From Nitrospirales bacterium (GTDB lineage: Bacteria; Nitrospirota; Nitrospiria; Nitrospirales; UBA8639), in the NCBI GenBank assembly GCA_031315915.1, contig JALDRK010000001.1, positions 62,001 through 126,000 of the forward strand: DNA of 64,000 nt, read 5' to 3'. Position 1 is the stretch's first letter; each line of letters starts with the position of its first letter. Position numbers and translations under genes: made by a program. Below the pieces are notes generated by a model that was given only the letters and a program-made list of their open reading frames with translations, did not search any database and had not been told where the DNA came from. This document shows, one piece after another, positions 22,048 through 53,236 of this stretch.

Positions 22048-23919
22048 CTATGAGGGCGCTTTGGGCAAAACCAAAACTTCGTCGTCGCTCTCGAGCGCAT
22101 CGGATGTGCGCTCGGCACCGTCGGCGAAGCGCCATACAGCGCTCCAGCGGTAAACGCCCAGCGGAAGAAAGACCGTGCGCGGTGTTTTGTCGCGAAACTG
22201 TTCGACGCGTTCCGTGTCGCCTCTGGCGAGGCGGACTGTGAGTTCGGGTGTGACGGCTGCGTCGAGGAACACCGGCAGCAGTTGAACTTGACGACGCTTG
22301 GAGGCGGGCACGACGATCGGCAGCACGCCCGCCTCGGTGCGAGCCCACGGATGCGATTCGAAACGGCCGTCGGCAAAGCTCAGGTGCGCGCGCCATTCGA
22401 TCGCGGTCGGGCCGTCTGGGCGCGAGGGGGCATCCCACTCGGCGAAGTCCTGGGCACCGTCCAGTGCGATGGTTTGCTCGTGCAGCCGCTCGCCGTCGTC
22501 GTAGCGCAAATCGACCATGGCGGCGGCCAACTCGTCCCAGCCGGCGCCGGCGGGCACAAGCGTCACGCGCCGGCGGTGTCCGACATAAGGATCGACGGCG
22601 AGAATCTGCTCGCCGACAACATCGTCGAGGCGCTCTTGGTAGACGGCGCCGTTACGCGCAAGAAACGTGAGGCGCGCGCTGAGGCGCCCGCGCGGCTCGC
22701 GCAGTTCAAGCGTCCACTGCGCGGCGCGCTGCTCCGCGTTGAGCTCGAGTGTGTTCACGGTGCGCCGCGAACCCAGGTGCTCGATCTCGACGCGCACGGC
22801 AGCCCAGCGGCGCTCGAAGTCAAGCCCGGAGGAGACGGCTTCCAGGCGCAGCTTGCCGAAGCTCGGCACCGCGACCAGCAGCGCGGTTTGATTCTGGACC
22901 GCCGTCCACGCAGACCACTCAGCCGCCGGTGCCCCGTCGAGCTTGATGCGCCGCCGCCAGCGGAAGTTGCGACTTCCGAGCGCGAACCGCCGCGGCAGAT
23001 CGTCGGCGAGAGCGGCTTCGGCGGGATGCCCTGCGCCGATGGGCTCGAGTTGAACGTCAACGCGCTCGAGAGTGCCCGAAAAATCGCCGAGCGCGCGCAC
23101 GTCGATGGGCGGCGTGGCGCCGATCTCCGAGGCCTCAAGCTGATGCGTTTCGACGATGCGCTCGGCATGCTCAGCGGCAACGGGATCAAGCGTGCCAGCA
23201 AGCGTGACGGGCCAGGAGACGACGTCGGACGCCGAAACGCGAACGTTGAGGCCCTCACCTGACGTAAAACGATCAAGGAGCTCGTCGAGCGCCCAATCGC
23301 GCAACGTGCGCTCGAGCTCGGCGTTGAGGCCGCCACGAATCTCGATGTGTGCGTTGGCGTCGATCACTGAGCGGATCACTGTGCGGCGCACGTCGCCGCG
23401 CACGGAATCGATGCGTCGGCGAACTTCGTCGATTGCGGCCGATGCGATAACATCGACCGCTGGCAGTTGCACGAGCGCGCGGCCGGTCCAGGTGACCTGC
23501 ATCGGCGAGACGGAGCTGCGCGTGAGCAGCGCCGCAAGCACGCCGGCCTGTTGCGTTGTGAGGTCGACGCCGACGGCGCCAAGACCACCCGCGAACACCG
23601 AAACGTCCGCTTCGACGGGTTCCATCTGCGGCCCCTCCAAACGAATACGCGCCTCGCGCCAAGGGATGGGCTGCACGTTCGCGGCGCTGAGGCCCGCGGC
23701 AACAAGCGCCGCCGCGTCCGGCGCGACGGTCAAGTCAAGATCGAGCCGGGCGCGCTGTTCGGCGCCGCCGGGCGCTACGACCCGCAACAGGCGCACGCGC
23801 GGATGTCCGTCGGCGCGTCGGGCGATTTGGGGACGCAAGAGCGCAACCGCCGGGCGCGAGTCGGCGTTGTCGTCGAACACGATCAGGGGAGGCGTCGTGC
23901 GGAGCGGGAGAGTCAGCAT
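22048..23919 (-). CDS. Large beta-module protein of the YLP family (member A)
   Basis: A 623-residue protein of the paralog family that fills 22-53 kb. The N-terminal domain (about 1-240) has a modified signature (RRADGHPRVRLLRV where other members have P-R-x-x-x-x-G-x-P), followed by an amphipathic helix (LERTLRDWALDELLDRF). From about residue 275 there are four beta-rich modules beginning with PIDVRALGDFSGTLERVDVQ, FGKLRLEAVSSGLDFERRW, RRVTLVPAGAGWDELAAAMV and RRQVQLLPVFLDAAVTPEL. No signal peptide or membrane segment is seen. It is the last gene of a four-gene minus-strand operon and begins 2 bases after the previous stop. Function unknown. Confidence 0.65.
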   Translation of the reverse strand: MLTLPLRTTPPLIVFDDNADSRPAVALLRPQIARRADGHPRVRLLRVVAPGGAEQRARLDLDLTVAPDAAALVAAGLSAANVQPIPWREARIRLEGPQMEPVEADVSVFAGGLGAVGVDLTTQQAGVLAALLTRSSVSPMQVTWTGRALVQLPAVDVIASAAIDEVRRRIDSVRGDVRRTVIRSVIDANAHIEIRGGLNAELERTLRDWALDELLDRFTSGEGLNVRVSASDVVSWPVTLAGTLDPVAAEHAERIVETHQLEASEIGATPPIDVRALGDFSGTLERVDVQLEPIGAGHPAEAALADDLPRRFALGSRNFRWRRRIKLDGAPAAEWSAWTAVQNQTALLVAVPSFGKLRLEAVSSGLDFERRWAAVRVEIEHLGSRRTVNTLELNAEQRAAQWTLELREPRGRLSARLTFLARNGAVYQERLDDVVGEQILAVDPYVGHRRRVTLVPAGAGWDELAAAMVDLRYDDGERLHEQTIALDGAQDFAEWDAPSRPDGPTAIEWRAHLSFADGRFESHPWARTEAGVLPIVVPASKRRQVQLLPVFLDAAVTPELTVRLARGDTERVEQFRDKTPRTVFLPLGVYRWSAVWRFADGAERTSDALESDDEVLVLPKAPS

Positions 23920-23921
23920 GT

Positions 23922-25532
23922 TCAGATCTTGACCTCCACGGTTTCGCCTTCGGCGTCGCGCACCAGCGACTCGACGATCGGTTGCGTGCGACCGTCTGGC
24001 GTCTTCGGCACGTGGCGCGTTTTGTAGCGCAGACGCGGCGGCACCAGCAGACTAGCACGACGGACCGGCCAGTCGAGCGGCGCCCCGGCTTCGAGCGTAC
24101 GCCAAGGTCCGCCTTCCGGTTGAACAGCGACGTAGGCGGCGCGTGCGCGGTGTTGCGTGTTAACGCTCAAACGCACAGGCATGACTTCGCCGACGCCGAG
24201 CATCGATGCGCTGATGATGAGGCCACCGTCGACCGGAAACGCGCCGAGTGCAACCGACGTTCCTCCGGGCGCCGCGGCCGAGACCTCGACCGTTGCCGGT
24301 GGCGTGCGGCCCACGGCCCAAGCTTCGGGCGCGGAGGCTGTGAGTTTGATCTTGCGAGAGCCGACGGCGCACTCGACCGATTCGGCATGCTCAAAAACTT
24401 CTGGCTCGGCGAAGAAACGCAGCGGCGTGAGTCCGAGATCCTCAGCGCGAACTTGGATTGATTGCTCGCAGTTGCGGAATCCCGTTTCGATGATGGCTGT
24501 TCCGCTCGCGGTGACGACGGTGACTTTTGCGCGCCAAGAAAGTGCCGACTCGTCGAACGTTTCGCGCACGTAGCGCAGCCGCGTAGCGCTTGGCGCGCCG
24601 GGCAAAAAGGTGTGTCGCACGCTGCCCGTCGGCCCGCCGGTGCGGACCTCGATCTCAAGCGCTGAGATTCCCGCCGGCGCGAGCGGCGTGTCGTTGCCGA
24701 TGACGATTTCCGCGGCTTCAAAAGGCGCAGGGACTTTGACGTCGATCAAGTGGCGCGAAAGGTCGGGCTGCGACGCCAGAAAGTCGCTGAACGACCAGCG
24801 CAGGCCGAAAGTCCGCGACGCGGCGACAGGCACGGCCAGGCTTATGGTAAGTTTGGACGGGGTATCGCCGCGCAACGACCAACCGGAGGCATCAGACTGC
24901 AGCAGGTGCGGCGCCGCATGGCGAGCCAGCGCTCGCAGGGCTTCGGGCGGCGGGGGGATGGCGCCGGGCTCGAGCGCGCGCCAAGTAAAAAGATCGGCGC
25001 CCAAACCGAAGAAGGCGTCTTCAACGCGCGACCAGGGAACGGGATCGCGTCCGAGCAATGGGGACAGCGCGTCGCGCAGGCGCGAACCGAAGACGCTTGC
25101 CGCCCAAGGGTGCGTGGGCGCGAAACCGTGCACGGTTGCTTCGACCTCGACGTCCACGAGCTCGCTGCCCGCTGCGCCCAGCCGCCGGGCAATGGCCGCC
25201 TCAACGGCATTGAGGGACACAGACCGATCCACCAAGGTTTGAGCCAAGACGGCGGAGGTTCGCCAAGCGCCGGCTTCTTCAGCACCGCCGGTTTTCATGA
25301 CGAGCCGAAAGCGGCTCTCCGCGATGGGCGCTGGGCGTTCGTTGGGTCCGAGCACGAGCCGGTCAGTCTCGAGCCGAATCTGTAGCGTTCCTCCCGCGTC
25401 GCCGCGGCTCAGCAGAACGCTCGGTCGGCCGTCGTCGCCAACGTGTGGTCGCAACGCGGTCGGCAGACGGTAGCGGCGTTGAGGGTCGGCGTGGTCGGCG
25501 AACCCGTCTTGGCCTGCGTCAAAAACGAGCAT
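23922..25532 (-). CDS. Divergent YLP-family protein (member B)
   Basis: A 536-residue protein. Its N-terminus (MLVFDAGQDGF, then RRYRLPTALRPHVGDDGRPS and VLLSRGDAGGTLQIRLE) is a clear version of the family signature: aromatic-x-L-P, R-P, G-R-P, then a hydrophobic strand and a Gly pair. The middle and C-terminal beta modules are more divergent than in other members. It overlaps the upstream gene by one base and runs straight into member A, so the operon is translated as a coupled set. It lacks a signal peptide, cysteine pattern or catalytic motif that I can recognise. Function unknown. Confidence 0.6.
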   Translation of the reverse strand: MLVFDAGQDGFADHADPQRRYRLPTALRPHVGDDGRPSVLLSRGDAGGTLQIRLETDRLVLGPNERPAPIAESRFRLVMKTGGAEEAGAWRTSAVLAQTLVDRSVSLNAVEAAIARRLGAAGSELVDVEVEATVHGFAPTHPWAASVFGSRLRDALSPLLGRDPVPWSRVEDAFFGLGADLFTWRALEPGAIPPPPEALRALARHAAPHLLQSDASGWSLRGDTPSKLTISLAVPVAASRTFGLRWSFSDFLASQPDLSRHLIDVKVPAPFEAAEIVIGNDTPLAPAGISALEIEVRTGGPTGSVRHTFLPGAPSATRLRYVRETFDESALSWRAKVTVVTASGTAIIETGFRNCEQSIQVRAEDLGLTPLRFFAEPEVFEHAESVECAVGSRKIKLTASAPEAWAVGRTPPATVEVSAAAPGGTSVALGAFPVDGGLIISASMLGVGEVMPVRLSVNTQHRARAAYVAVQPEGGPWRTLEAGAPLDWPVRRASLLVPPRLRYKTRHVPKTPDGRTQPIVESLVRDAEGETVEVKI

Positions 25533-26986
25533 TAGAAGTCGAACTGCACCACGGCTTGTCCCACTTGGATGTCAGCCGAGCCTTGTCCAGGCTTCCACGT
25601 TGTGCGTGCGCCTTCACCGGCGGCGTGCAGATTGGTGACGCGGTAGAAATAGCGCTGTTGATCGTCGGCCTCGCCCATCAACTGGTCGATCATGCGCCCG
25701 ACGAGCGTGACTTCGGACTCCGGCTCCTCAGGAGTCAGCTCGACCTTGGATCCGTCGTCGAACTCGACGAGCAGGCCGATCAGCGGCTCGGTGCCGCCCG
25801 CGGCCGCGCCGAACACGCCGTCCGCAGCCCGAACCGTAAACGAGAAAATGAGCGAGCTGTAACCCTGGTTCAGCATCAGCAGCTTGAGCAGCGCGGCTAG
25901 GTTCGGCTCGACGCGGCCGAAGACGATCGGCTCGAGCCACTCGACCGGCGCCTCGGGCGGAGTCACTTGATACTCAACGTCGACCCACTCTTGCGGTTGC
26001 AGTGTGCGATTGAGCAGCGAGCTCGAGTCCACCGGCGCCGCCGCGGCTTCATCAGAGACCCGCTCAGAAAGCAAGCGTTCGATGGCGACGGGACTTTCGA
26101 TGCGGTTGCGGACGCGCACACGGTAGCGGCCCGACGTACCGCCGACGGCCCCGAGAAAGTCGACGTCAAAAACGTCGGGCGAGGTTTGCCACAACGAAAG
26201 CGAGACGCGGCTCTGGGCGGGAGTGCCGTCGAAGAGCTGATAAGTGACTTCGCCGGTTACGCCCGTCGCAGGGTTGGCCAGGCGCTCACGCCACAGGCGG
26301 GTGAAGCGGTTGTGATCGAGGATGAGCGTGTCCGCGATGCCGACCGAGGCCTCGATTTCCGCTTCGTTCCGCTCCTGTTCGGCGTCGAGCAAGTCGAGCT
26401 CAAGGCGCAGCTTGGCTGCACGTGGCACGATGGGCGTGAACCGCGCGACGAGGCCTTCAGCGGCAAGCTCGGCGCGGGCGAGCTCGATGATCTCGGGATC
26501 GAGCCAGGGGTCGAGCTCGTAGGAAACGATTACGTTAAACAGCACTTCGGCCTGGTCGGCCTCACCGGTGGTGGCGAAATCCGCGGTGAGCAGGCTGAGG
26601 CTTGGCAGGTAAGGCGACTCCTGCGAGCGTGCCAGCCGGAACTCGGTAGGCGCCAGGTGGATAACGTCCGGCATCAAGTTGTCTTGGAAAACGACGCGGT
26701 CGGCGCGACCGCTGGGATCGGTCAGCGTGCGCGGCAGCAACAGGTGGATGGCGCTCGTTTGAAACGTTTCCGTCGCGTAGACCGAGGACTGCGTGCGCGG
26801 GTTGAAGTGAAAGGGCAACTGCGCGGACGCCTCTCGATCCGTATTGATGATGGCCGGCTTCCCGGTGCGGTCCAGCGGAATACGCAAGGGAACGACGGCG
26901 CGATTGTTCACACGCAAATCGCTGGCGGCGACAGCGGCGTTGAACGCGGGCGCGTTGACGCGGGTGAGCGTCGCTGAAGTCACCAC
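25532..26986 (-). CDS. Divergent YLP-family protein (member C)
   Basis: A 484-residue protein. The resemblance to the family is in the first half: a strand-rich start, then SPYLPSLSLLTADFATTG, LDPEIIELARAELAAEG and FTPIVPRAAKLRLEL, which parallels LRWDPELVENARAKLRAEE...LTPIFFREGSVKL in the protein at 34193. The C-terminal third (VEWLEPIVFGRVEPNLAALL onward) has no match I know. Start codon overlaps the end of the upstream gene by 7 bases. No signal peptide. Function unknown. Confidence 0.6.
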   Translation of the reverse strand: MVTSATLTRVNAPAFNAAVAASDLRVNNRAVVPLRIPLDRTGKPAIINTDREASAQLPFHFNPRTQSSVYATETFQTSAIHLLLPRTLTDPSGRADRVVFQDNLMPDVIHLAPTEFRLARSQESPYLPSLSLLTADFATTGEADQAEVLFNVIVSYELDPWLDPEIIELARAELAAEGLVARFTPIVPRAAKLRLELDLLDAEQERNEAEIEASVGIADTLILDHNRFTRLWRERLANPATGVTGEVTYQLFDGTPAQSRVSLSLWQTSPDVFDVDFLGAVGGTSGRYRVRVRNRIESPVAIERLLSERVSDEAAAAPVDSSSLLNRTLQPQEWVDVEYQVTPPEAPVEWLEPIVFGRVEPNLAALLKLLMLNQGYSSLIFSFTVRAADGVFGAAAGGTEPLIGLLVEFDDGSKVELTPEEPESEVTLVGRMIDQLMGEADDQQRYFYRVTNLHAAGEGARTTWKPGQGSADIQVGQAVVQFDF

Positions 26987-28014
26987 CGGGCGAACGGCGG
27001 CCGTCGGCTCGGTGGCGCGGCGGACAACAGGTGCGGCAACGCGAGCGGCCGCGGGGTCGCCCGCACCATGACAGGCGCCGCTCGAACGGTCGGCCTGGCA
27101 CGCGCCGTGGCCGGTATGACTCGCGCAGCCGCGGGAGCGGCGCGAACGCGCGCGGCCGGCTGCGCCGCGAAGCGTACCGCTAAATGGGGCCGGTCGAGCA
27201 GCACGCTCATGTTGTGTATGCGCGCGGTTTCTACCGGCGGATTGGCGCGTACCGTCACCCGCGAGGTAGTCGTATTGGCTGTTGTCGTCGCCGTTCGCGC
27301 CGGAACGCGCACAGCCGAAAGCGTCTCGCGATTGAGCACGCTCGTGACCAGCGCGCCGCTTGTGGCTAGTGCGTTTGCCTGGTCGAGCTTGCTCACCATG
27401 CCGCCCAACATTACTTGCCGCCAGGTGCGCACGCCGACGCGGGCGCTGTGCTTTAGGTGCAGGGTGGCGCTCCTTTCCGGGTCGCGCATGGCCTGATACA
27501 CGGCATCGAACTGCGCTTTTTCGGCAAAAATTGTGACCGACTGGGTACGCTCGCCATCGCCGCGCACGGGCGGCTGTAGCGGTACGACCTCCTCCGCCGC
27601 CGCGGCAGAGCCCTGGACTGGAAGCTTGTAGCGCAGCTCGAGGTCCGTGGCGTGGTCAAGCACGCGCAGATCAAGGCGCTCCGCAACCGGCGGTATCCAG
27701 GAAAATTCGATGGTCAGCCGTCCGGCCTCGCCGTCGTCCTCATCGCCGTCGTAGCGCAGCTCGACCCCCGGACGGCTGTCGAGCCGGGCTATCTGATAGA
27801 GCGGCAGGTAGAAACGGACGTGCGACGAACCGGCCGAAGGGTACAGCTTGTTGGGCTCCAGGGAGTCGCCGCCGGAAAGCACCGGACGCTCGACGGCCGC
27901 CGGAGCCGAGCGCCCGACCGTCTTGTCCTGGATGATCCGCTCCCGGACCAGGTGCAGTTTCGAAAGTTGGATCGCGCCTAATTTTGCGTCGACCAGGAGT
28001 GTGGATCTGTCCAT
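26980..28014 (-). CDS. Short YLP-family protein with Ala/Arg/Pro-rich tail (member D)
   Basis: A 344-residue protein, first gene of the minus-strand operon. Residues about 60-130 hold the family signature (VRFYLPLYQIARLDSRPGVE and then EAGRLTIEFSW). Instead of beta modules, the last 100 residues are low-complexity, with repeated R-V-R-A-x-P, A-A-x-A-R and T-A-R-A-R-P runs, strongly basic and probably disordered. This could bind an acidic partner or nucleic acid, or be a packing tail; I cannot tell. It faces the plus-strand operon across an A+T-rich gap of about 600 bases. Confidence 0.55.
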   Translation of the reverse strand: MDRSTLLVDAKLGAIQLSKLHLVRERIIQDKTVGRSAPAAVERPVLSGGDSLEPNKLYPSAGSSHVRFYLPLYQIARLDSRPGVELRYDGDEDDGEAGRLTIEFSWIPPVAERLDLRVLDHATDLELRYKLPVQGSAAAAEEVVPLQPPVRGDGERTQSVTIFAEKAQFDAVYQAMRDPERSATLHLKHSARVGVRTWRQVMLGGMVSKLDQANALATSGALVTSVLNRETLSAVRVPARTATTTANTTTSRVTVRANPPVETARIHNMSVLLDRPHLAVRFAAQPAARVRAAPAAARVIPATARARPTVRAAPVMVRATPRPLALPHLLSAAPPSRRPPFARW

Positions 28015-28632: not shown

Positions 28633-31491
28633 ATGTTTGTCCGTACCAATGAGCTGAGCCTGAAAACAGAACCGCCGCGTACCCTTATGCTGCTTATCCC
28701 ACCGATCCGCAAAATCGGCGACATTACCGTCTACCAGGACGACACCGTCTGGCATCGCTTTTATCTGCTGCCTTCGCTGCCCACCGTACGCACTGACGCC
28801 GAGGGTCGCCCGATTTTCCTGTTGGCCCTGTATCACATCTCGGATCAGGACCGCGCCGAGGATTCTACGCTGCCGCGCGGCGGCGGCTACATGAACTTCG
28901 ACGTGCAATTCGCCGTCAGCCCGGCCGACACAGAGTCGGCGAGAAGCGAGCTGCAGCAGTGGGTGGACGAGGAGTACCGCAAACGGCGCGCCGACCCGCA
29001 GCTCGCCCATCTGCCTGAATTCGCCTCGCCTACGCCGCCCAAAGTTGAGTTCGCCGACCCGCTGCTCTCTGGCGGTCGAGTGACAAAGCACACCACGCAG
29101 TCCGAGCATCTGGTGTCGGCGCGGTTCGCCGAGGCGCCGGCATCGCTGGTGAGCGGCTCGACGGCGGTTTTCAATCTCGACCTGACGACGACCGGCGCCT
29201 CCTTCATGAAGGACCTGATGGTCGGCCCCGACGGCGCCGGTGCGCGCGACTTGACGCCTGTCCAGGTGATCTACGACCTCAAGATGTGGGCGCGCGCGCC
29301 GGCGGTGAAGATCACCGTCAAGGGCCACTCCGAACGAATCCACAAAACGCTGCAGAAACTGTCGGAGACGAACCGCGACAATCCCTGCACGCCGCGAGAG
29401 GTGGAGACGTATCGCGAAAACGGAGTGAACAGCTCGACGCTCAAGGAGTCGGGGCATGTGGAGGTTCACGTCGACAAGGGCGATGCTTCGGTTCCCGACG
29501 AAATCGTCGAGTCGCTGCAGGAATACGCGCTCGACCTGTTCGACACGATGATCGAAGAGCGATTTCTCGTTCCGGCGGAGAGCCAGGACGACGCGCTAGA
29601 GTTCGATCGCGACGATCCCGCCATGCGCGACGCCGATCCGGGCTGGGTCGCCGTGCGCACGGGCGCCAACTACAGCGGCACATCTCGGGAGATCTCCGAA
29701 GACACCGACTCAATCGGCGACATGAACGACAAAGTGCGCTCGGTGCGTGTTCGCTCCGGCCACCGGGTCACACTGTACCAGCACGTCAACTACGCGGGCT
29801 CGGCCAAACAGCTGTCTTCGTCGATCAGCGACCTGGGCGGCTGGTGGGGTCAACACGTTTCCTCGGTGCGCGTTTGGCGGCCGCCTACGACGCGGTACAA
29901 GGTTCGCGAGACGCTAAATCAGTCGACGATGAATTTGGAGATCACCATCGACCGTTCGCAAGTCGTGGAATGGCCGCTGGTGGGGCAGGCGACGCTGCAA
30001 ACGTTTTTCGCCGATTCGGACGCGCAGGCGATGCGCCGCCACATCGTCGAGGTCATCCCTGACGATTTCAATACGTTGGGCGTGGCGGTGCAGGTTTTCG
30101 TGAACTTCCAGGACTCGCCGGTGCAAGCCGTGGAAGTGCAGACCGAGTACGAAGCCAAGGATTCGACGGGCGAGCGCCGAGTGACGCCCGCGTCGTTCAC
30201 GTTTCGCGCCGGGGCGCTTGAGCCGAAGAAGTTCGACCCGGCCGTGGTCAGCGGCAAGCGCGAGTACCGCTTTCGCTACCGCGTCATCTACGACGACGGC
30301 TCACAGTCGCCTTATACCGAGTGGGAGACGACGACGAATCGCGCGCTCAACGTGAGTGTCGTCGACCCGGGCTTGTTGCAGCTTGACGTCAGCGGCGCCA
30401 CGCTCAACTGGGATCTGCTGCGCGGCGTCACCGTGGCGTTGAGCTACGCGGATCCGAACGACCCGCAGGCCAACGCGCAGAAGACGTTTGAGCTGACCGC
30501 CGTCGCGCCGTCGCGCAAATGGCAGACGCGCCTCGGCAAAGGCGGCGGGATCGTCACCGCTAAACCGACGTATTTCCTCAAGGACGACAAAGTCGTCGAA
30601 GGTAAGGTGCATACGCTTGACACCACAGAGACGCTCTACGTCGTGCCGCCGCCTCAGCTTGACGTGCTCAACGTGAGCCTTGTGCCCGCGGGCGCGTGGG
30701 ACGGCGTCAACCAAGCCGTGGTCTCGCTCGAGTACGACGCGGGCGACGGGCGAATGTTCGACAAGACCTACCGCTTCACCAAGGTCGACGAGATGGCCGA
30801 GTGGGCCGTGTTGCTGCAGGATCCGACCAGACGCACGTTCCGCTACAAAGTGCTGGTCACTTACAAAAACGGCGATGTCGACCAGGGCCAGTGGAAGACC
30901 GAGTCCGGCGACCAGGCGATCGCCGTGAAAGTCAAGAGTGCGCCGAAGCTGCTGGTCAACGTGCTGGCGAACCTAGTCGACTTTTCGCGCACGCCGGCCG
31001 TCACAGCGTCACTGAGTTACGGAGACGAGCGCAAAACCCTTTCTTTTACGGCGCCGGGAACCCAGACGTGGCAGGTGCCGCTGATCGCGGACCTCGGACG
31101 CGAATACGCCTACGAAGTAACATGGCATCCGCTCGACGGCGACCCCATTAAATCGGGCGTCAAACGGACGGCCGATACGGAGCTGTTCATCCGCAAGGCG
31201 GTCATCTCGACGCCCGGCAAGTTTGATGTCATCGTGCGCGGCTTCGCCGTCGATTTTGCGGCCACGCCGTTCGTCGACGTCACGATCACACTCGCCGAGG
31301 GCGGCGAACGCAAAACGCTCACGCTGCACCAGGAGCAGAAGAACGCCACTTGGTCGGTCGACATCGGTGACCGCACCAATCGCAGCTATCAATACGAAGT
31401 CGTCTACAACCTCGCCGACGGGACGCGCGTGGACGGCCCTTTGGGCGAGAGCGACGACCCCGTCATCTCGGTCACGCCACATCGTCCTTAA
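28633..31491 (+). CDS. YLP-family protein with beta/gamma-crystallin domain (member E)
   Basis: A 952-residue protein, first of the plus-strand operon. The N-terminal family domain (about 20-240) shows ITVYQDDTVWHRFYLLPSLP, G-R-P, LPRGGGYMNFDV and APASLVSGSTAVF. Residues about 337-416 form a beta/gamma-crystallin-like unit with two Greek-key motifs (GANYSGTSREI and QHVNYAGSAKQL), a fold that often binds calcium. From about 500 there are five beta-sandwich-like modules with a recurring W...R-x-Y-x-Y-x-V-x-Y-x-x-x-D-G pattern. No signal peptide. The start could also be the ATG at 28687, where the similarity to other members begins. Function unknown. Confidence 0.68.
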   Translation: MFVRTNELSLKTEPPRTLMLLIPPIRKIGDITVYQDDTVWHRFYLLPSLPTVRTDAEGRPIFLLALYHISDQDRAEDSTLPRGGGYMNFDVQFAVSPADTESARSELQQWVDEEYRKRRADPQLAHLPEFASPTPPKVEFADPLLSGGRVTKHTTQSEHLVSARFAEAPASLVSGSTAVFNLDLTTTGASFMKDLMVGPDGAGARDLTPVQVIYDLKMWARAPAVKITVKGHSERIHKTLQKLSETNRDNPCTPREVETYRENGVNSSTLKESGHVEVHVDKGDASVPDEIVESLQEYALDLFDTMIEERFLVPAESQDDALEFDRDDPAMRDADPGWVAVRTGANYSGTSREISEDTDSIGDMNDKVRSVRVRSGHRVTLYQHVNYAGSAKQLSSSISDLGGWWGQHVSSVRVWRPPTTRYKVRETLNQSTMNLEITIDRSQVVEWPLVGQATLQTFFADSDAQAMRRHIVEVIPDDFNTLGVAVQVFVNFQDSPVQAVEVQTEYEAKDSTGERRVTPASFTFRAGALEPKKFDPAVVSGKREYRFRYRVIYDDGSQSPYTEWETTTNRALNVSVVDPGLLQLDVSGATLNWDLLRGVTVALSYADPNDPQANAQKTFELTAVAPSRKWQTRLGKGGGIVTAKPTYFLKDDKVVEGKVHTLDTTETLYVVPPPQLDVLNVSLVPAGAWDGVNQAVVSLEYDAGDGRMFDKTYRFTKVDEMAEWAVLLQDPTRRTFRYKVLVTYKNGDVDQGQWKTESGDQAIAVKVKSAPKLLVNVLANLVDFSRTPAVTASLSYGDERKTLSFTAPGTQTWQVPLIADLGREYAYEVTWHPLDGDPIKSGVKRTADTELFIRKAVISTPGKFDVIVRGFAVDFAATPFVDVTITLAEGGERKTLTLHQEQKNATWSVDIGDRTNRSYQYEVVYNLADGTRVDGPLGESDDPVISVTPHRP

Positions 31492-38781: not shown

Positions 38782-38809
38782 TGTTACGTGTCCTAATTAT
38801 GGCGATTTA

Positions 38810-40355: not shown

Positions 40356-40364
40356 GTCCTGAGC

Positions 40365-40718
40365 CTAGCGCCCGTCGTGATAGACCAGATTGCCCGCCCA
40401 CACGCCCTTCAAATTCTCGCCCATCTTGTCAGACCCATACGCGGGATGCCAGTCGAGTTGTTCGTAGACGTGGCCGATCAGCATCCAGTTCAGCCGGTTC
40501 TTCGACTCCGCGATCGTCATCCTCGGCGCGTAGTGGTTCGTCGACGCAATTAAGTAATCCGTGTCGCGGCGCAGCTCGATATCGACGTCGGGACAGTCGC
40601 CATTGAGAATTGGGTTGCGGGAGATCCCATCGCCTTGATCGACCCAGGCGCAAGGTTACGCCAAGGCCAAGCCGACGAGAAACACGATCACGATTGAGAG
40701 ACGGAAGGCAATCAACAT
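40365..40718 (-). pseudogene. Small secreted protein gene with in-frame TAA after the signal peptide
   Basis: From ATG at 40718 the frame encodes a classical signal peptide (MLIAFRLSIVIVFLVGLALA) and then meets TAA at codon 21. The same frame continues without another stop for 96 codons: PCAWVDQGDGISRNP, CPDVDIELRRDTDYLI, HYAPRMTIAESKNRLNWM and a C-terminus with GVWAGNLVYHDGR. The reading frame kept on both sides of one stop, exactly at the expected cleavage point, suggests a recent nonsense mutation or a sequence error in a real exported protein of about 117 residues. No family recognised. It is the last gene of the 53-40 kb minus-strand operon. Confidence 0.5.
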
Positions 40719-45153: not shown

Positions 45154-47217
45154 CTAGGAATCCTCCGGCGGCAGCTCGATAACCAGCACCGCCTTCAGCT
45201 CCGACCAAGTCGTTTCCACGATCCGCCCGGAGTCCCGAAACTCTCGCGCCCGGGCGCGCGCCGCCGGGCCAGCCATGGGCGCCGTCAGCGTCAGCGTCGC
45301 TTGATCGGCGTTGTCTTCAAGCAGCGTCGTCGCGCGCTCATCGCCCGCTTCAAGCGATAGCTCGATGGCCAGGCTGCCGCGCGCCACCGGCCCGCCGCCC
45401 AACACAAAAAACTCCACACGGTACACCTTCACCGGCTCATCCGCGCCCACCGCGATCGTCGCGCTTTCGCTCTCGATCCAGTCGCCTTGCTCGAGCGCGC
45501 CGTCGAACCCGAGCTTCGTCGTCCGGGACTGGTAACTGCGAGGCGATCCGGGCAACCGCCGCAACGCCGCTTCGCGCAGCGTCCGGTCGCCCGCTTCCCA
45601 ACTAAGGGAGCGCTCGCAAACAAAATCGCCGTCGTGCACGCGCAACTCGAGCGTCAGGCCCAGCACGTCGGCAAGCGGCATCGGTGCCGCAAGCACTCGA
45701 ATCGAACGCCCGAACGGACTGTCGAGCGTCACAATCTCCTGCTCGGTTTCGAACGGCTCGACCGCTCGTTGCGGCTCGTGGCCCGCGCCGCGCCAATACG
45801 TTTTTATCCCAATCGGACCGGCGCCGGCTCCCGGAAAGCTGATTTCTTGCAGCGGATGTTCTCTGCTGAGCAACACCGTACGCTCCGGCTCGCGCGGCGC
45901 CGCCAGCCGCACTTCGACGTGATCGATCCAGTCGAGCTCGCCAGCTCCCAGCAACAGCGTCATCGTGCGTGACGGAAAAAGTTTTCCCGCCGGCACAAAA
46001 ACGAAATCGCCCTGCGCGTCGATCCACTCCGTCTCGCGGTCCCCCATCCGCGTGCGCGTAGGATCGAAGCGGGACCGCGCGCGATAGCGCAGCCGATCGC
46101 CGAGACTGCGCTCCACGCTGAAACGCCGTTCCACGTCGTCGCCGCTGAAGGCGACCGTCCGGTCCACGTCGCCCCCGTCGTCGAAGTCCAGATCCACCTC
46201 GAGCGCCGCTAGCCCCAGCCGGTCCAAGCCCGGCGATGTGCGCACTGTGATCGTGCGGGTCCACGGCCGGTCCAGATCAACGAAAGTAATGTGCGCGTCG
46301 GCATCCGCGTCGCGCAGAAAGTCGATTAGATTCGCGCCCGCATAGTGCATGATGCGCACCGCACGCCGCTCGGCAAACGACCAGCGGCGCGTCTGCGCCA
46401 GCTCTTCCCGCCGCATGGTAAGCCTGAAGCTTAACTCGAACGGCGCCACGTGTTCATCGTCGAGTTGCGGCGGCCGCTCCGGGGGCGGGAAGGGAGAGAA
46501 CATCTCGGCGGTGAGCTGCTCGCCAACGCGCCGCACTGCTTCCGCACGCCGGCTTTCGACATGGCCGCTCTCATCAACCACGCGCACACGTATCAAGTTG
46601 TCGCTGGTCATCTCCTCCCAGGTTTTTGCGATGCGCGCGCGGCCGTAGGGAATCGTCAGCGCGCCTTCGGCGGTCAATCGATCGTGCATGGCCTGCAAGT
46701 CGGCTTCGACCTCGACGCCCAGCGGCCCGGCCAACCCCAGCGTCTCCAGCCGCCACAACAATGCCGTCGGCAGCGCGTTTCCGCGCAGCGCCTGTTCCGC
46801 CATCGCGGCGCCCGCCTGGTCGAGTCGCGCCGACAGCACTGCGCGCGGAGATCCGACCAACAAAGGCGCCCCGAGCGCCAACGACACCGGCTTCAGCTCG
46901 TCCACGGCCAACCATCCCGCCACTTCCACTTCGCCCGTTCGCCAATCCGGTTGCGCCACCCGCGGTGGCGGTCCGCGCCGCGCCAACTCGCGCGAAAGCT
47001 CTTCGACCTGCTCGTCGCGCGGCGCCAGCTCGGCCTCCAACTGCAGCAACCCGCCTTGTGCCCCTTCGCCGCGGAACAGCAGCAGCGAGATCAACGGATC
47101 CGGTTTGCGCGCGATGCGCGGAACGCTCGCCGCCACGTAACGCAAGTTCGGGTCGACGTGATCGTAAAAGACGATCAGTCCACGGTGAGTCTCCGGCGCA
47201 CGACCGGCGTCAATCAT
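45154..47217 (-). CDS. YLP-family protein (member J)
   Basis: A 687-residue member. The start at 47217 has GAGGGAGG upstream and lies after the stop of the protease gene; a longer frame to 47289 would overlap it. The N-terminal domain is a diverged version: GLIVFYDHVDPNLRYVAASV, PRIARKPDPLISLLLFRGE, GGLLQLEAELAP and LLVGSPRAVLSARLDQAGA. Helices (about 200-270) precede four modules (LAALEVDLDFDDGG, HVEVRLAAPRE, GLTLELRVHDGD and SLAIELSLEAGDE). The end, VVETTWSELKAVLVIELPPE, lies 32 bases before member I. No signal peptide. Function unknown. Confidence 0.65.
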   Translation of the reverse strand: MIDAGRAPETHRGLIVFYDHVDPNLRYVAASVPRIARKPDPLISLLLFRGEGAQGGLLQLEAELAPRDEQVEELSRELARRGPPPRVAQPDWRTGEVEVAGWLAVDELKPVSLALGAPLLVGSPRAVLSARLDQAGAAMAEQALRGNALPTALLWRLETLGLAGPLGVEVEADLQAMHDRLTAEGALTIPYGRARIAKTWEEMTSDNLIRVRVVDESGHVESRRAEAVRRVGEQLTAEMFSPFPPPERPPQLDDEHVAPFELSFRLTMRREELAQTRRWSFAERRAVRIMHYAGANLIDFLRDADADAHITFVDLDRPWTRTITVRTSPGLDRLGLAALEVDLDFDDGGDVDRTVAFSGDDVERRFSVERSLGDRLRYRARSRFDPTRTRMGDRETEWIDAQGDFVFVPAGKLFPSRTMTLLLGAGELDWIDHVEVRLAAPREPERTVLLSREHPLQEISFPGAGAGPIGIKTYWRGAGHEPQRAVEPFETEQEIVTLDSPFGRSIRVLAAPMPLADVLGLTLELRVHDGDFVCERSLSWEAGDRTLREAALRRLPGSPRSYQSRTTKLGFDGALEQGDWIESESATIAVGADEPVKVYRVEFFVLGGGPVARGSLAIELSLEAGDERATTLLEDNADQATLTLTAPMAGPAARARAREFRDSGRIVETTWSELKAVLVIELPPEDS

Positions 47218-47239
47218 CGACGCCCTCCCTCGGCGCTCG

Positions 47240-50039
47240 TCACGGTCGCAGCAAGACCGAGGCGTCGACTCGGCCCAGCCCCCAGTCATCCACGCTATCC
47301 GCCGCGCGCCGCGTGCTCGAAATCTCCAGACGGTTGCGTATGTCGCCCGTATCGAGATTCGGGTTCAGTTGGAGCAATGCGGCCACCAAACCAGTCACCA
47401 CGGGCGTCGACATGCTTGTGCCAGACATGTCGGTCACGCCGCGGGCACTGCTGCTGGGCGTCCAGGAGTTGGCCGAGCTGATGCGGTGGCCCGGCGCGGT
47501 CACGTCGATCGCTCGCTGGCCGGGCGCGGCGGCTCGCAGCGGACCCGGCGAGGAAAAGAACGCCAGCTCGTCTACCGGGTGACCGGCCATGCCCGGGCGG
47601 CTGGTAAAAGCAGCAACGCAAATCGTGCCGTGACCAGTGCCCGGAGTGCCTACTTTGTTTCTCTCGAAGTTGCGCAGCTCATCCGCCGTATAGGTTAGTC
47701 CGAGCAGCACATTCGTCTGCGCCGCCGTGAATACGAACCCGCCGCGCCACTCTCTGAAGGCCGCATAACCATGGACGATGCAAGTCGAACGCGCCGTGTT
47801 GCGCAGGCGAATAATCCACGGCGCCGTCGCCACGGACGCCCCGGGCGTGGGCCGAAGCCAGTACACCTCCTGGTTGTAGTGCCGGTTGTTGGGCCGTTCA
47901 GGACCGTTGTGGACATTCACGCGGAAGCTGCCTGGCAGATTCGTCGTGATCGCTGCGCCCGAAGTGCGCGGTCCAACTTCGGCCGTCGCCATCACTGCGT
48001 TGGAGGAGTGCCGCGTTGAGATGAAAAGCCGCACCCTCGTGCCGTCTTCGTTGTAGCTCCAGAAAGTGACTCCATCGTCGCGTTGCTGCGATTGAGCGCC
48101 GCGTCCAAACGGCTGGTAGAGAACGGAAATTTCTCCGCCTGCGGGAATCGAAGCCTGCCAGTGCGGGATCTCCGCGCAAGTTGCCGGCCGACGCACAAAT
48201 CACCCGACCGTCGATGTACTCAGGCATTGCGCTCGGAAGAACGCCCAAGCCCAGTGCCGGAACGAAATTCCTGCTTACAAGCTGCGCCAGCGCGATCGAG
48301 AGCGGATCCGTCCCGTCGTGCGAGTGCCGCTCCGTCCCCAGACTGATGTTGACCACGCAGGGCATCCCCAGCTCAGTCGCCTTTTGAAAGCAGTACTTCA
48401 CCCCCGCAATCACGTCGTTCACAAATCCGCCCACCGAACCGGTCGATGCCACAACAATCGTCGCCGCCGGCGCGATGCCGCCGGGCCAACCAGTCAGCGG
48501 GCGTCCGGCGGCGATCCCGGCGACGTGCGTGCCGTGCCCTGCGCGGTGCGTACCGTCCGCGTTGGTCGCAAAATCACGCGCCGTGATCACTTCGTCGTGT
48601 CCAATGAGCTCGCGGCCGAAGTGCATCGAGCGGTACGCGACGTTTCTTCCGCTCTTCGTCCATGGCGAGTCGCCGCCCGACTCCCCCATCTGCCACACCG
48701 AGTGGATGCGCGTTTTTGTCGCGTCGTCCGCGCGGCCAAGAAACGCCGGGTGCCCGCCGTCGATTCCACTGTCGACAATTCCGACGACGATGCCTTGGCC
48801 TGTGTTCGCCGCCGTCACACCGGCCGGAAACGTGCGCGCCGCCAAATTGATCTCGTTGCGCGCGTCCGTCATGTCCGGCCACACCGGGGTGGACAACGTC
48901 AGCTCCAGAACGTCAGAGCGCTCGGCCAGCGCCATCACCTGGGCCGGTGGACACCGAAACGTCCGCATCGCGCCCTCGCCGTCTGCGATCACGCCCTCGG
49001 GGAGGTCGCCTTGCGGAAAATTCTCCGCCACTGTTGCGATCAGTAGCACATAGGGGTTGTCTTCGGCGCCTACGAGCGGCGTGTTGGGATCGGCGAGCGA
49101 GGACTGCAGATTCTCCACTAAACTCGGCAACTCCTCAAGGAACCCGGCCGTAGACGCGCCCAAGGCGCCGCGCGCGCCTTCCGGTACCTCCAATCCCAAA
49201 CCCACAGGCGCATGAAAGAAAACAAAACGACTCGCTTCGTTGGCTTGCCGCGCCGCCGCCGTATGCAACAACGCCGTCCGATATCGTGGCGACGCCTCCT
49301 CGCCCTGATCGTCAATCCGATACACAAGCTGCCGAGCGTTTCCCACCGGCGCCTGAGGATTCCACAACCGCTCGGACACGACCGCATAGCAGTAGAAATC
49401 GTCGCGATGTAGGCGAATCTCGGCCAAGTTCCCCGTGTCGGCACCCAAGTACGCCGATGAAACCCCGGCCGGAAACGCGCCTTCGGCCACCGTGCCTTTG
49501 GCGTAGTACTCGCCCGTCGGTTTGTACGTGCCAAAGTGCAGCAGGAACGATTTCAGCTCTTCGAGGTCCGTTGTGGGCAAACCGCCGGGAACCTCGGTAA
49601 TCGTGACCAGATTTTTGGCCAGCGCCGTGCGAACCGAATCCGCCGTCAGCCCGTCAGCCCAGCTTCCCGCCGCCGCCGACGTCAAGCTCCCGCCCTCGGC
49701 GCCGCCCGCTTCGGAAGGCCGCCGAAAGTCCGCCAGAATGCGTGCGATCGTTTCGCGCGTATCCGTAGCCACGTCAAAACGCTCGACCACCCACAACATC
49801 ACGTAGGTGCGCGCGCCGCCGTCGCCTGCTACGCCGATCGAAAACTGCGGCGTGATCGAGCCGTTCGCAATCGGCGTCAGCGCTGCCCCGGTATAGGCTT
49901 GGTAATCGCCGGCCAGAACCAGCGGCGCGCCCGCCGGTTGCCGCTCCTCGAGCTCTTGGCGCGTCGTCGTTCCCGGCAGCTCGGCGAGGAACACTTTAAA
50001 AAATCCGTCTTGGTATTGCGCGAGACCAGGGTGCGGCAT
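47240..50039 (-). pseudogene. Subtilisin-like (S8) serine protease, frameshifted near 48180
   Basis: The catalytic triad is complete but split between two frames. The first frame (from ATG at 50039) holds Asp423 in GIVVGIVDSGIDGGHP, His505 in HRAGHGTHVAGIAAG and the oxyanion Asn region VICASAGN. Near 48180 the frame is lost. The second frame (47240-48196) continues with EIPHWQASIPAGGEI and has the nucleophile in DMSGTSMSTPVVTGLV. About 400 residues precede the catalytic domain and begin MPHPGLAQYQDGFFKVF, without a signal peptide. A single indel or sequence error would explain the split. It sits between YLP-family genes and could process them or act as a partner. Confidence 0.8.
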
Positions 50040-50062
50040 GGGGTTCTCTCTCGTTCGACCGA

Positions 50063-52534
50063 TTAGGGCCCCAGCGGATCGAGCAACAGGATCTCGTCCG
50101 AGCTCGTCACCGGCCCCGTCTGACGACGCGAGCCATCAGTTCCAAACCAAGTTACTTCGTACGTGTACGATTTAGCGTCGGCGCGCTCCATCGGCACGCG
50201 CCAGGTGAGCTCCTCGGTGCCCAGCCGGAATATCTGCTCGATGTCTGAATCCGCCCAGCTCGGCGCATCCGGATAGTTGAGCCGCAGCTTCACCAGACGA
50301 AACCCGCCCTCGGCCGGCGGCGACAGGAACAGCACCTGCACCACCAGCACGCCCGCAATCCGGTCGCCCACAATCAGCAGGGGATTGTCCGTCGCCTTCC
50401 ACGGCTCCTCGGCAATGGCGCCGCCCTTCAGAAACGCCGTCACCTTGTAGGAGAACCGCGCGTCGCCCCCCGTCGCTTTGCGGAACGACCACTGCGCTTC
50501 GTTCAGGCCTTCGCCCAGATTCAAGGTCCGTTCTGGCTGCGGCGAGGCCGCAGCGCCTTTGGCCAACTGGACCGTTACCTTCTCGTAGCGGGTCAACTCG
50601 TCCGCCAGCCGTATGTCGACCACGGCCGTCTTATCCGCCGGCTGATTGATCACGAACGGCTCGTCGCCGGGTTGTGCGATCGTGACCACGTCAGTCTCGC
50701 CTTGCGCGTCAAAAAACGCCGCGCGTACGGTGACTTGTTTCTTCTCCGCTTTCTTCGGCCGAATCTTCAGCGCCGCCGTCGGCGATTCCCGCGTCAGGAT
50801 CTTCGTGTCCGCCGCAGCGAGCCCCGAGTCCGGATCGTTGTAGCTCACCTTGGCTTGAATCTGCTGAACCGTGTTCCAATCCACCATCGCCGCCGTCAGC
50901 TCCACCGGCAAGATCGAGCTATAAGCGGCCGGGTTGATGTCAAAGTTTCGGGTCGTCGTCCTGATCCATGGCGATTCTTCCTTTGTCGTCTCGTCGCCGA
51001 TCGAGGCTTCTGGCCGGTAATTAAGGATCACCTGGAACTCGAGCTCGGACGACCCCGCGTCGTCCACCGCAAAACGATAGGCATGCGACTGGCCCGTCGC
51101 CGAAAGCGTCTTCTCGACTTGATCCTTCCAACGCGAGCCATCTGGTTTCACGCCGTAGCGCAGCTTCACTTGCACCGACGCGACGCCCAACGCCGCCAGA
51201 TCCGCCGACGTCGAAATCGTCCCTTCGATCGTCTTGAAAAACTCGGCGTCCAGATCGGCCATCACAATGCGGCCTGGCAGGCTGCTCGCTCCCGGCAGCA
51301 GCCGAATCTGACCTTGCGGAGCGATACTGCGCTCCACGGCCGAAACCTGCCGCAGCTTATATTCGATGTCTTGCTGCTCGACCTGCGACAAGCTGCGCAG
51401 CAAGTAGGCGCCTTGCGGCCGTCCAGCGCGGTTCCACGCTTCGACCGCCGTCGGCGGCCCTCCAGAGGCGGCCGCAGGCACGGGTTGATCGCCGCCCCTT
51501 TCCGTTGTTTCGCCTTCCGCCGAACCGCCTTCTGTCGTGCCTCCTTCGCTTCCGGCTTCTTCCACCGCGCCCGTTGCCACGCCAACGCCCGGTCTGCGCG
51601 GCGCCCCGGCGTCCGCGCTCGCGCCCACGCCCGTCAGCGCCGCCCGCGACGCACTCGTCAGCCCAGCCGTGATCCCCGTCACCGCCGTCGTGGCGTCATA
51701 GGCCTGCAGGGTGCCGCGATCAGACGCCAACACAGCGCCGGGATTCAAACCCGGCGTAAAGAACGACCACTGCGCCAGTTCCTTGGCCAGCGTGTTCAGT
51801 CGCGTCATCCGGGCCGACGTCTGTTCGGGCGACTCCGTCTCGTAAACCACTTCCTCAATGTCGATCGCGCCTGACTTGATCAAGCTCTCGAACTCGCGGT
51901 CTATATCGGAGCGAAACCACAACGTGTTCATCTGCGAACGCTGCCGCAAGTGCTCGTACACTTGCCGGAACTTGATCTTGATCGTCACGTCGTAGGCCGG
52001 CAGCAGACCCACGAACTGCAGCTCGTAGAGGAGGACCACCGGCGTCGCGCCGTCGCCTTCGAACGCCGCTTTCATCAACTGCGCGCCCTTGCCGCTAAGC
52101 TCCGCTGTGAACGCCGCGCGCTGATCGCCGTACAAGCTCGGTTTGCCTGGCGCGATCAGGTTTTCCACAAACCGCGGCTCGGCGCCGTTCTCGCCCGGAA
52201 CCGTTCCGCTGTCGAGCGCCGTCACGCGAACCGACCCGCCTTTCACCGGAACCGGCGCCAGCGTCGCCTGCATTCCGAACCGACCCGAAAGTTCGCTCTC
52301 GGTCTTGGTGATCGTCGCCGACGAAACGCCCAAGTCGGTCGTCATCGTCAAAAAACCGCCGGCCGACGTCGCCGTCTCGCTCACATCGCGATAGACGAGC
52401 AACTGGAACATTGGCTGCCCGCCTTCCATCGAAAGACGCGGCGATTTTGGGAGATAGTAGAAACGGGTTTTGTTGCTGTAGTCCCGGTAGACATAGAGAC
52501 CGTTCAGCTCAAGGGGCGCGTCGAGGTAGAGCAT
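50063..52534 (-). CDS. YLP-family protein (member K)
   Basis: An 823-residue member with the clearest signature: MLYLDAPLELNGLYVYRDYS, KTRFYYLPKSPRLSMEGG, AGGFLTMTTDLG, GKPSLYGDQRAAFTAEL and YELQFVGLLPAYDV. A low-complexity Gly/Glu/Thr/Ala linker (about residues 295-360; for example EAGSEGGTTEGGSAEGETTE) separates the N-terminal half from four beta modules (ASVQVKLRYGVKPDG, IQAKVSYNDPDS, VTVQLAKG and LVKLRLNYPD). The protein begins right at the family domain, so it has no room for a signal peptide. It is 23 bases ahead of the protease gene. Function unknown. Confidence 0.68.
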   Translation of the reverse strand: MLYLDAPLELNGLYVYRDYSNKTRFYYLPKSPRLSMEGGQPMFQLLVYRDVSETATSAGGFLTMTTDLGVSSATITKTESELSGRFGMQATLAPVPVKGGSVRVTALDSGTVPGENGAEPRFVENLIAPGKPSLYGDQRAAFTAELSGKGAQLMKAAFEGDGATPVVLLYELQFVGLLPAYDVTIKIKFRQVYEHLRQRSQMNTLWFRSDIDREFESLIKSGAIDIEEVVYETESPEQTSARMTRLNTLAKELAQWSFFTPGLNPGAVLASDRGTLQAYDATTAVTGITAGLTSASRAALTGVGASADAGAPRRPGVGVATGAVEEAGSEGGTTEGGSAEGETTERGGDQPVPAAASGGPPTAVEAWNRAGRPQGAYLLRSLSQVEQQDIEYKLRQVSAVERSIAPQGQIRLLPGASSLPGRIVMADLDAEFFKTIEGTISTSADLAALGVASVQVKLRYGVKPDGSRWKDQVEKTLSATGQSHAYRFAVDDAGSSELEFQVILNYRPEASIGDETTKEESPWIRTTTRNFDINPAAYSSILPVELTAAMVDWNTVQQIQAKVSYNDPDSGLAAADTKILTRESPTAALKIRPKKAEKKQVTVRAAFFDAQGETDVVTIAQPGDEPFVINQPADKTAVVDIRLADELTRYEKVTVQLAKGAAASPQPERTLNLGEGLNEAQWSFRKATGGDARFSYKVTAFLKGGAIAEEPWKATDNPLLIVGDRIAGVLVVQVLFLSPPAEGGFRLVKLRLNYPDAPSWADSDIEQIFRLGTEELTWRVPMERADAKSYTYEVTWFGTDGSRRQTGPVTSSDEILLLDPLGP

Positions 52535-52642
52535 CTAGAAGGAGCCCTCTTTTTAGGAGTTCATGGATGTAGATAATACTACTAAGATCCGCCGACATCA
52601 ACAAGGAAATATTTCGGGAAAAAAGGTCGTAAGACTATTTCG

Positions 52643-53236
52643 TCAGTCGAGTTTCACTCGCTGGATCCAACCGACCGGCTCGTCCTGCTCGGAAATCAAT
52701 GGGCCGCGAAAAACGAATGTCGACGAGTCTGTTGTCTGTCGGCCGCTCAGGCAGAGCGAGTATTCGGTGATCAGTTCAGCCCTGCCGGACGTCCAATCTT
52801 CCTCGAGCCTTACCGCCTGCCTGGAGCTGAGCTTGCCCTGAAACACGCACTCGTTGTCGCCGAACAGCGCCGGTCGACCAACCAGCTCGATATCCTCGAG
52901 CAACCGCAGCCGTACGATCCCGTCGTGCCAGTCCAGCGGCGACAGCCGGGGCTCGCCGGCGCCTACGCTACGGACCCGGAGATCTCTAGATAGAGCGAGT
53001 TGGACGGCGTTGCGCTCCGTCTGGGTGACGCCCAGCGTCGTCGTCGCGGTGAAAACGGCGCCGCTGGGCTGATCGCCCTCCACGTGCACCAGCAACCGCA
53101 CTTGAGCCTTGCCGTCCACCCGCGCCAACCGTGGTCGCGACGCCAGGAGGTAAAAGCAAACCGGATCGCGATCGTCACCGTAAACGGCAACCTCAGGGGC
53201 CTCATCGATCTTAATTGGGTTCCGGCGGTCGAGCAT
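52643..53236 (-). CDS. Minimal YLP-family protein, N-terminal domain only (member L)
   Basis: A 197-residue protein that holds the N-terminal domain and nothing else: VAVYGDDRDPVCFYLLASRP, RLARVDGKAQVRLLVHV, VFTATTTLGVTQ, GRPALFGDNECVFQGKLSS and TEYSLCLSGRQ. It shows that this domain can stand alone and sets its length at about 200 residues. I chose the ATG at about 53236 because the family similarity begins there; a GTG at 53308 adds 24 unrelated residues. First gene of the 53-40 kb minus-strand operon; the neighbouring insertion sequence lies about 80 bases upstream and may have removed its promoter. Confidence 0.65.
   Translation of the reverse strand: MLDRRNPIKIDEAPEVAVYGDDRDPVCFYLLASRPRLARVDGKAQVRLLVHVEGDQPSGAVFTATTTLGVTQTERNAVQLALSRDLRVRSVGAGEPRLSPLDWHDGIVRLRLLEDIELVGRPALFGDNECVFQGKLSSRQAVRLEEDWTSGRAELITEYSLCLSGRQTTDSSTFVFRGPLISEQDEPVGWIQRVKLD

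Follow-up and report, generated by a model that had tools for sequence, protein, structure and literature searches.

A horizontally acquired island of paralogous beta-module proteins with a linked peptidase in a Nitrospirales genome, possibly encoding a single hetero-oligomeric assembly

The window analyzed here is a stretch of 64,000 nucleotides from a Nitrospirales bacterium (assembly GCA_031315915.1, contig JALDRK010000001.1, positions 62,001 to 126,000), and much of its middle is taken up by an island, acquired horizontally from another organism, that encodes a subtilase and an array of paralogous proteins sharing a conserved N-terminal domain (hereafter N-domain). We tentatively propose that the array specifies a single cytoplasmic hetero-oligomer coupled with an exchangeable endopeptidase, possibly a device deployed in biological conflict. 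Provisionally, the system may be called new, in the sense that the databases and literature searched hold no matching family, PDB fold, or described array. The open reading frames (ORFs) and other features of the island, which includes insertion sequence (IS) elements, are as follows, with coordinates counted from the start of the window and protein lengths in amino acids (aa).

20796..22035, minus strand: IS3-type transposase genes of the left flank (orfA 21466-22035, orfB 20796-21677), recognized by ORF content
22048..23919, minus strand: m4, 623 aa, with beta modules and a divergent N-domain (E 1.8e-5 against the N-domain profile and 1.4e-46 against the full one)
23922..25532, minus strand: m3, 536 aa, a remote member orthologous by BLAST to Rhz_12841 and Hydrogenophaga m3
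25532..28014, minus strand: m12, a single gene split by a frame break into the pieces m1 (26980-28014) and m2 (25532-26986)
28633..31491, plus strand: p1, 952 aa (alternative ATG at 28687), N-domain, beta/gamma-crystallin (I36-like) insert, and beta modules (Pfam I36 1.1e-8; orthologue tree)
31507..34188, plus strand: p2, 893 aa, N-domain, helical part, and tandem beta modules (alignment, tree)
34193..36481, plus strand: p3, 762 aa, N-domain at residues 1-279, then tandem beta-sandwich modules (AlphaFold2)
36481..38781, plus strand: p4, of the same family, 5' end frame-broken and open from 36580 (733 aa)
38793..40404, no strand assigned: intergenic stretch with IS/transposase remnants (short transposase-like ORFs)
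40740..41672, minus strand: q5, ~310 aa, a conserved partner with no detectable N-domain, 43% identical to q5 of a cyanobacterial bin and also present in the Hydrogenophaga and Rhizobiaceae arrays
41624..45121, minus strand: q4, 1165 aa, N-domain, insert with an OmpA-C-like pattern (43151-43672), and beta modules
45154..47217, minus strand: q3, 687 aa, N-domain plus beta modules (N-domain profile)
47240..50039, minus strand: S8 subtilase, split, without signal peptide (Pfam Peptidase_S8 on both pieces)
50063..52534, minus strand: q2, 823 aa, N-domain plus beta modules (alignment, BLAST, tree)
52643..53308, minus strand: q1, a short or truncated member with the N-domain only (N-domain profile 2.9e-17)
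53463..54558, plus strand: IS3-type transposase of the right flank (sequence, ORF)

As an earlier sequence-only reading of this DNA had recognized, the large ORFs form three co-directional runs, namely, 28.0 to 22.0 kb on the minus strand, 28.6 to 38.8 kb on the plus strand, and 53.3 to 40.7 kb on the minus strand, which are transcribed in the orders m12-m3-m4, p1-p2-p3-p4, and q1-q2-subtilase-q3-q4-q5, respectively. The description of their products as giant was overstated, most members being of 480-1165 aa. The guanine-plus-cytosine (GC) fraction at third codon positions is 0.73-0.84 in the island ORFs versus 0.59-0.61 in the flanking genes; hence, we take the island ORFs to be real coding sequences. 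The overall GC content of the island is 63-65% versus 48-54% outside it, with a step from 0.50 to 0.67 just past the left IS3-type genes. IS3-type transposase genes lie at both of its ends, and IS remnants are found in its middle (~38.8-40.4 kb). The protein family occurs only at this locus within its own genome, and all 59 genomes sampled from the host's family and order lack it. The foreign GC content and codon use, the IS flanks, and this absence in relatives are the grounds for assigning the island a foreign origin, which, like the frame breaks and the secreted short relatives considered below, had been overlooked in the sequence-only reading.

The N-domain comprises ~270 residues and is common to eight ORFs (p1-p4 and q1-q4), in which it can be aligned throughout. 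Its motifs are, in order, D-x-x-D-P-x-x-F-Y-Y-x-P near the start, G-G-G-F-L, P-S-L-Y-G-x-N-R-A-x-F-S-x-x-L, and Y-x-L-x-x-x-G-L-x-P-A; among the near-invariant residues, Asp24, Gly, Pro, Leu, and Tyr predominate, and the alignment displays no conserved catalytic constellation. Membership was tested with an N-domain profile built without m3, m4, q1, or p4 and with shuffled sequences as controls. The held-out members q1 (2.9e-17), p4 (5.7e-45), and m4 (1.8e-5) were recovered far above the shuffled controls, the best of which reached an E value of 0.19 with the full-length profile, so that the claim of a shared, conserved N-terminal domain holds. The m3 protein of the window itself scores 0.13 and joins the family only through its orthologues in Hydrogenophaga, Mesorhizobium, and Shinella, the Hydrogenophaga one matching the N-domain profile at 8.7e-10. 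The orthologues of m12 contain one or two N-domain copies that are weakly detected (E 6e-4 to 5e-3). Of the “at least eleven” paralogues originally counted, ten are supported; an eleventh is obtained only if m12 is included, and m1 and m2 had been miscounted as two genes. An 850-aa protein of the caspase-type arrays described below (locus L048, 2983-5532) possesses two N-domain-like stretches, a possible internal duplication.

Searches of Pfam, NCBIfam, PHROGs, and PADLOC returned no above-threshold match for the paralogues except the crystallin/I36 insert of p1; stray matches to TOBE_3, PotI, V4R, T3SS_WxxxE, and phrog_30595 were rejected as being below the cutoff or covering few residues. 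A sequence-profile search of the PDB recovered no relatives of the paralogues, none were found among viral contigs and phages (a tblastn search of phages with p3 included), and we found no description of such arrays in open-licence papers. In the AlphaFold2 model of p3 (pLDDT 78), the N-domain is predicted to consist of mixed strands and helices and to be followed by tandem beta-sandwiches. When the N-domain model alone (pLDDT 76) was compared with the PDB, nothing better than an E value of 0.07 was obtained; the domain may thus adopt a new fold, a designation that is provisional because the model is of moderate confidence. Its sole match in a library of viral structures is A0A7S7YF07 of Medusavirus stheno (E 1.4e-5, TMq 0.33), an uncharacterized single viral protein superposing with a large root-mean-square deviation, whose kinship is unproven. 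Full-length p3 shares a tandem beta-sandwich architecture with alpha-2-macroglobulin/complement-type proteins and pilins, with Foldseek E values down to 5e-9; however, these matches were rejected as homology, since the TM score by query length is ≤0.15, identity is 6-11%, and the A2M families of Pfam are not matched, all of which points to a generic resemblance between modules. The claim of an unknown system therefore survives within the databases searched: no family library names the paralogues, and profile matches to a known multi-subunit machine or toxin family, which the sequence-only reading had named as evidence that would count against it, were not found.

Conserved multi-copy loci, for which the sequence-only reading had suggested a profile search, do occur in other bacteria. 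With the alignment of p1 and p2, they were detected in Hydrogenophaga (three genomes), Shinella, Rhizobium, Mesorhizobium, and contigs of a cyanobacterial bin; arrays are also carried by plasmids of Paracoccus and Pararhizobium and by sampled genomes of the host phylum, the Hydrogenophaga family, and the Alphaproteobacteria. The full-length profile matched 1/386 genomes from the phylum of the cyanobacterial bin, 5/296 from the host phylum, 3/301 from the Hydrogenophaga family, and 5/298 from the order of Shinella (4 of those 5 weakly), and the N-domain profile matched 4/308 and 3/293 from the classes of Shinella and Hydrogenophaga, respectively, with the center genome included in all counts. 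The arrays are, accordingly, rare and patchy across distant bacteria. The closest relatives are encoded on the contigs of the cyanobacterial bin (55-70% identity for p1-p4, with p3 at 70%), which are of low coverage and may be misbinned.

These arrays are not loose collections of duplicates. The gene order m12-m3-p1-p2-p3-q5-X-p4, where X is a domain described below, is kept in Pararhizobium, Rhizobium, Shinella, Mesorhizobium, and Hydrogenophaga. In a maximum-likelihood tree, p2, p3, and p4 each resolve as an orthologous group, with support of 99-100, that spans the window, the cyanobacterial bin, Hydrogenophaga, and the Rhizobiaceae, and p1 and p2 jointly make up a supported group with ten members; p3 and p4 of the caspase type join their own classes at lower support (81/93 and 92/94), and some long branches (q3, Paracoccus) are unsafe. 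The ratio of nonsynonymous to synonymous substitution rates (dN/dS) is 0.06-0.18 for all eight rhizobial genes, with X the lowest at 0.064, and 0.13-0.27 in Hydrogenophaga; for the caspase of the caspase-type arrays, it is 0.074. The array genes are under purifying selection. Taken together, class-wise orthology and low dN/dS show that the classes p1-p4 are ancient and travel together, with duplication preceding dispersal and each class being retained thereafter. This is the pattern expected of the unlike subunits of a complex, and class conservation provides the strongest evidence for the one-assembly idea, though it is no proof of contact. The suggestion of the sequence-only reading that the copies are subunits of one assembly rather than redundant enzymes is thus favored by fixed, non-interchangeable classes, conserved order, and a dN/dS of 0.06-0.27, with the complex itself remaining putative. 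Conversely, the view that the array merely consists of redundant enzymes or independent adhesins arising from recent tandem duplication, as so many paralogues lying side by side might suggest, is highly improbable; as stated, it is refuted by the class-wise orthology across distant hosts, which places the duplications before the spread, and, as regards enzymes, the N-domain offers no conserved catalytic constellation.

The window subtilase is matched by Pfam Peptidase_S8 on its two pieces (4.1e-16 and 1.1e-14), across which the Asp, His, and Ser motifs are all present. In the three Hydrogenophaga genomes, an S8 subtilase is fused to domain X. Four Rhizobiaceae encode X by itself, and in these copies Cys337, His519, and Asn535 are invariant; this is a Cys/His/Asn set of the kind seen in papain-like enzymes, and X has no Pfam or PDB profile match. 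In two genomes of the host's order and one of the Hydrogenophaga family (loci L048, L049, and L051), a C14 caspase with complete SGHGGR and DSCHSG motifs is encoded between p4 and q4. The Paracoccus array has a trypsin at its end and lies directly downstream of an operon coding for an EAD1-trypsin protein, an EAD1 protein, and an AAA/STAND-like NTPase. The linked peptidase is hence exchangeable among arrays, and the S8 protease, whose co-occurrence the sequence-only reading had asked to be checked, proved to be neither an obligate partner nor a fixed component. Nor is a peptidase present in every array: two alphaproteobacterial arrays of the caspase type (L090/L091 and L092) have none, which makes it nonessential to the array. 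An S8 protease and a PatG-like protein of the cyanobactin type (L052, 14539-16640) are encoded ~5 kb from a secreted N-domain gene; this pair was set aside as an array link, being that far away and on the opposite strand.

By hydropathy, none of the window copies has a signal peptide, in agreement with the sequence-only reading, and one 19-residue hydropathy peak (2.17) inside q2 falls in a beta module. The large arrays elsewhere likewise show no signal peptide by hydropathy and no linked export system. In contrast, short N-domain relatives with typical signal peptides are found in Ruegeria, gammaproteobacteria, and one member of the host's order. A Ruegeria plasmid (L063, 11829-17262) codes for short N-domain proteins in tandem, of which several have signal peptides and one has a peptidoglycan-binding domain, and in a gammaproteobacterium (L094, 1397-4734) a secreted N-domain gene overlaps a CsgG-like gene. 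The N-domain therefore appears to work in more than one compartment, which argues for a structural or assembly role and for no one particular function. These secreted relatives also keep alive a different interpretation, namely, that the arrays encode a structural or surface apparatus (an adhesin, appendage, or shell, whether extracellular, periplasmic, or particle-like) that the peptidase processes or releases, with no role in conflict. Tandem beta-sandwich modules like those of pilins and adhesins (at the fold level only), an M15 peptidoglycan hydrolase beside two Burkholderiales arrays, and the OmpA-C-like insert of q4 (43151-43672) would all suit such an apparatus. However, that insert keeps the Arg of the OmpA-C pattern while its canonical Asp is replaced, its best PDB profile match is weak (RmpM, 1r1m, E 0.058), and Pfam reports no OmpA match; further, the large arrays have neither signal peptides nor an export system, and ten array proteins matched no structural families in PHROGs and no phage relatives were found. 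We consider a surface apparatus rather unlikely, albeit a serious contender.

Several other genes lie beside arrays in other genomes. A large cytochrome P450 with a C-terminal DyP-peroxidase-like match is encoded upstream of the rhizobial arrays (L012, 4984-9252, and the upstream ends of L014, L015, and L016), with a divergent gene, which in Pararhizobium codes for a Crp/Fnr regulator, between it and the array. Two different Burkholderiales array types (L051, 1325-2011, and the end of L059 with the end of L013) are flanked by an M15 peptidase that has a peptidoglycan-binding domain, the two copies being 67-80% identical; it could belong to the system or simply be a gene common in that neighborhood. 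Downstream of the caspase-type arrays are several genes with a “LGIGTQEPQAQLHL” motif (L057, 552-1874; L058, 723-2468), one of them with a Peptidase_S74 tail-fiber-type chaperone domain. The P450-DyP fusion of the Rhizobiaceae, a tyrosinase in Paracoccus, and a Rieske ring hydroxylase in two alphaproteobacteria might indicate that the array is a storage compartment or a scaffold hosting redox or other enzymes encoded nearby. We regard this as improbable, given that the enzymes differ, that in the rhizobial and alphaproteobacterial instances their genes are not within the operon, and that none is seen beside the window, Hydrogenophaga, or L048 arrays.

The copy in the window has itself been disrupted. 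In the closest relative (L017), m1 and m2 correspond to one 865-aa ORF, which the two pieces match in different frames; the frame of p4 is disrupted by breaks close to the 5' end (36481-36590); and the subtilase pieces (47240-48196 and 47898-50039) are separated by a break near 47.9-48.2 kb. These may reflect sequencing error or decay. With m12, p4, and the subtilase frame-broken, q1 truncated, and IS remnants within the island, there is a considerable chance, if a lesser one than that of our own proposal, that this copy is a decaying passenger whose parts are genuine elsewhere and which has no function in this genome; such a situation would be compatible with the explanation we prefer for the intact relatives. 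On the other hand, the long ORFs p1, p2, p3, q2, q3, q4, and m4 are intact, dN/dS between the window and the cyanobacterial bin is 0.12-0.16 for p3 and p2, and one p4 break falls in a homopolymer-rich stretch, where an assembly error is possible.

In the proposal of a hetero-oligomeric cytoplasmic assembly, oligomerization and the roles of the N-domain and peptidase are what we infer rather than observe. Unlike subunits would pack through the N-domain, most likely the interface, whereas the class-specific helical part and the tandem beta-sandwich modules would project from or extend the assembly, along with extra modules such as the OmpA-C-like one in q4 and the beta/gamma-crystallin in p1. 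The linked endopeptidase would most likely be the catalytic part, either maturing the assembly or being switched on by it to cut targets. Biological conflict, be it defense or regulated killing, is the likeliest purpose, one that we weakly infer because the system is rare, mobile, peptidase-coupled, and once situated directly downstream of an EAD1-trypsin/EAD1/NTPase operon. Weighing against all this are the arrays devoid of any peptidase, the secreted N-domain relatives, which are easier to reconcile with a structure at the surface or in the periplasm than with a conflict device inside the cell, neighboring genes that are not generally defense genes, and the lack of a PADLOC model for the array proteins, as well as at least three frame breaks in the window copy, which may be nonworking as sequenced. 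A more specific version, to which we assign a low probability, is a cytoplasmic hetero-oligomer of 4-10 anciently diverged paralogues whose N-terminal fold is new; as a platform, it would either activate one of several interchangeable, unrelated proteases (subtilase, caspase, Cys/His peptidase, or trypsin) or be processed by it. Its logic would be apoptosome- or inflammasome-like, with unrelated parts.

Parallels are offered by several known systems. The peptidase- and EAD-coupled NTP-dependent conflict systems are encoded by mobile operons in which trypsin, caspase, and S8 peptidases can stand in for one another (Kaur et al. 2020, PMC7159879). The arrays resemble these EAD/STAND/MoxR-vWA systems in their exchangeable peptidase (S8, S8-X, X, C14, or trypsin) and in the position of the Paracoccus array downstream of an EAD1 operon; however, NTPase, EAD, and vWA domains are all missing from their own proteins, the core being made of beta-module paralogues with a new N-domain. 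By Pfam, no NTPase domain and no EAD is present in the window array proteins; an NTPase lies beside the array only in Paracoccus, where EAD1 is confined to two upstream genes. In the canu (caspase-nuclease) antiviral loci, a caspase or trypsin gene stands beside a larger partner and effectors are protease activated (PMC12799240). The arrays likewise place a protease gene beside larger partners, which might be its substrates, but no MBL-fold nuclease of the kind that marks caspase- or trypsin-nuclease modules (canu, Hachiman, AVAST) was found in the array proteins scanned, and there are many partners here versus one proenzyme. As their proteins are without the defining NTPase, EAD, and nuclease domains, we do not file the arrays under peptidase-coupled conflict systems. 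They also differ from contractile injection systems and tailocins in that no sheath, tube, or baseplate match was obtained (PHROGs with ten array proteins, tblastn against phages with p3). Bacterial gasdermin operons encode their partner proteins together with interchangeable proteases. Unlike bacterial gasdermins (PMC9079055), the array proteins scanned with Pfam and PADLOC include no gasdermin-like protein, and most members are much larger.

A few other features of the window lie apart from these subjects. Judged by eye, the region 6816-19862 holds a cluster of glycosyltransferase-, methyltransferase-, and oxygenase-like genes, including two tandem related genes (16900-17802 and 17858-18730), and the ORFs at 57523-60642 and 63203-63964 have similar glycosidase-like C-terminal stretches, the latter looking like a fragment. 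ARAGORN reports an undetermined tRNA on the minus strand inside p2 (32591-32667), which is probably spurious.

A fold unmatched in the PDB, a set of non-interchangeable subunits, and peptidases of several unrelated types make a combination without counterpart in the family libraries that we used. Should the assembly prove real, it would represent an undescribed class of bacterial complex, and if the peptidase is its output, the arrays would be an independent solution to protease-executed immunity or cell death. The intact operons in Hydrogenophaga, Shinella, and Rhizobium, culturable genera of soil and water, make the question directly testable.

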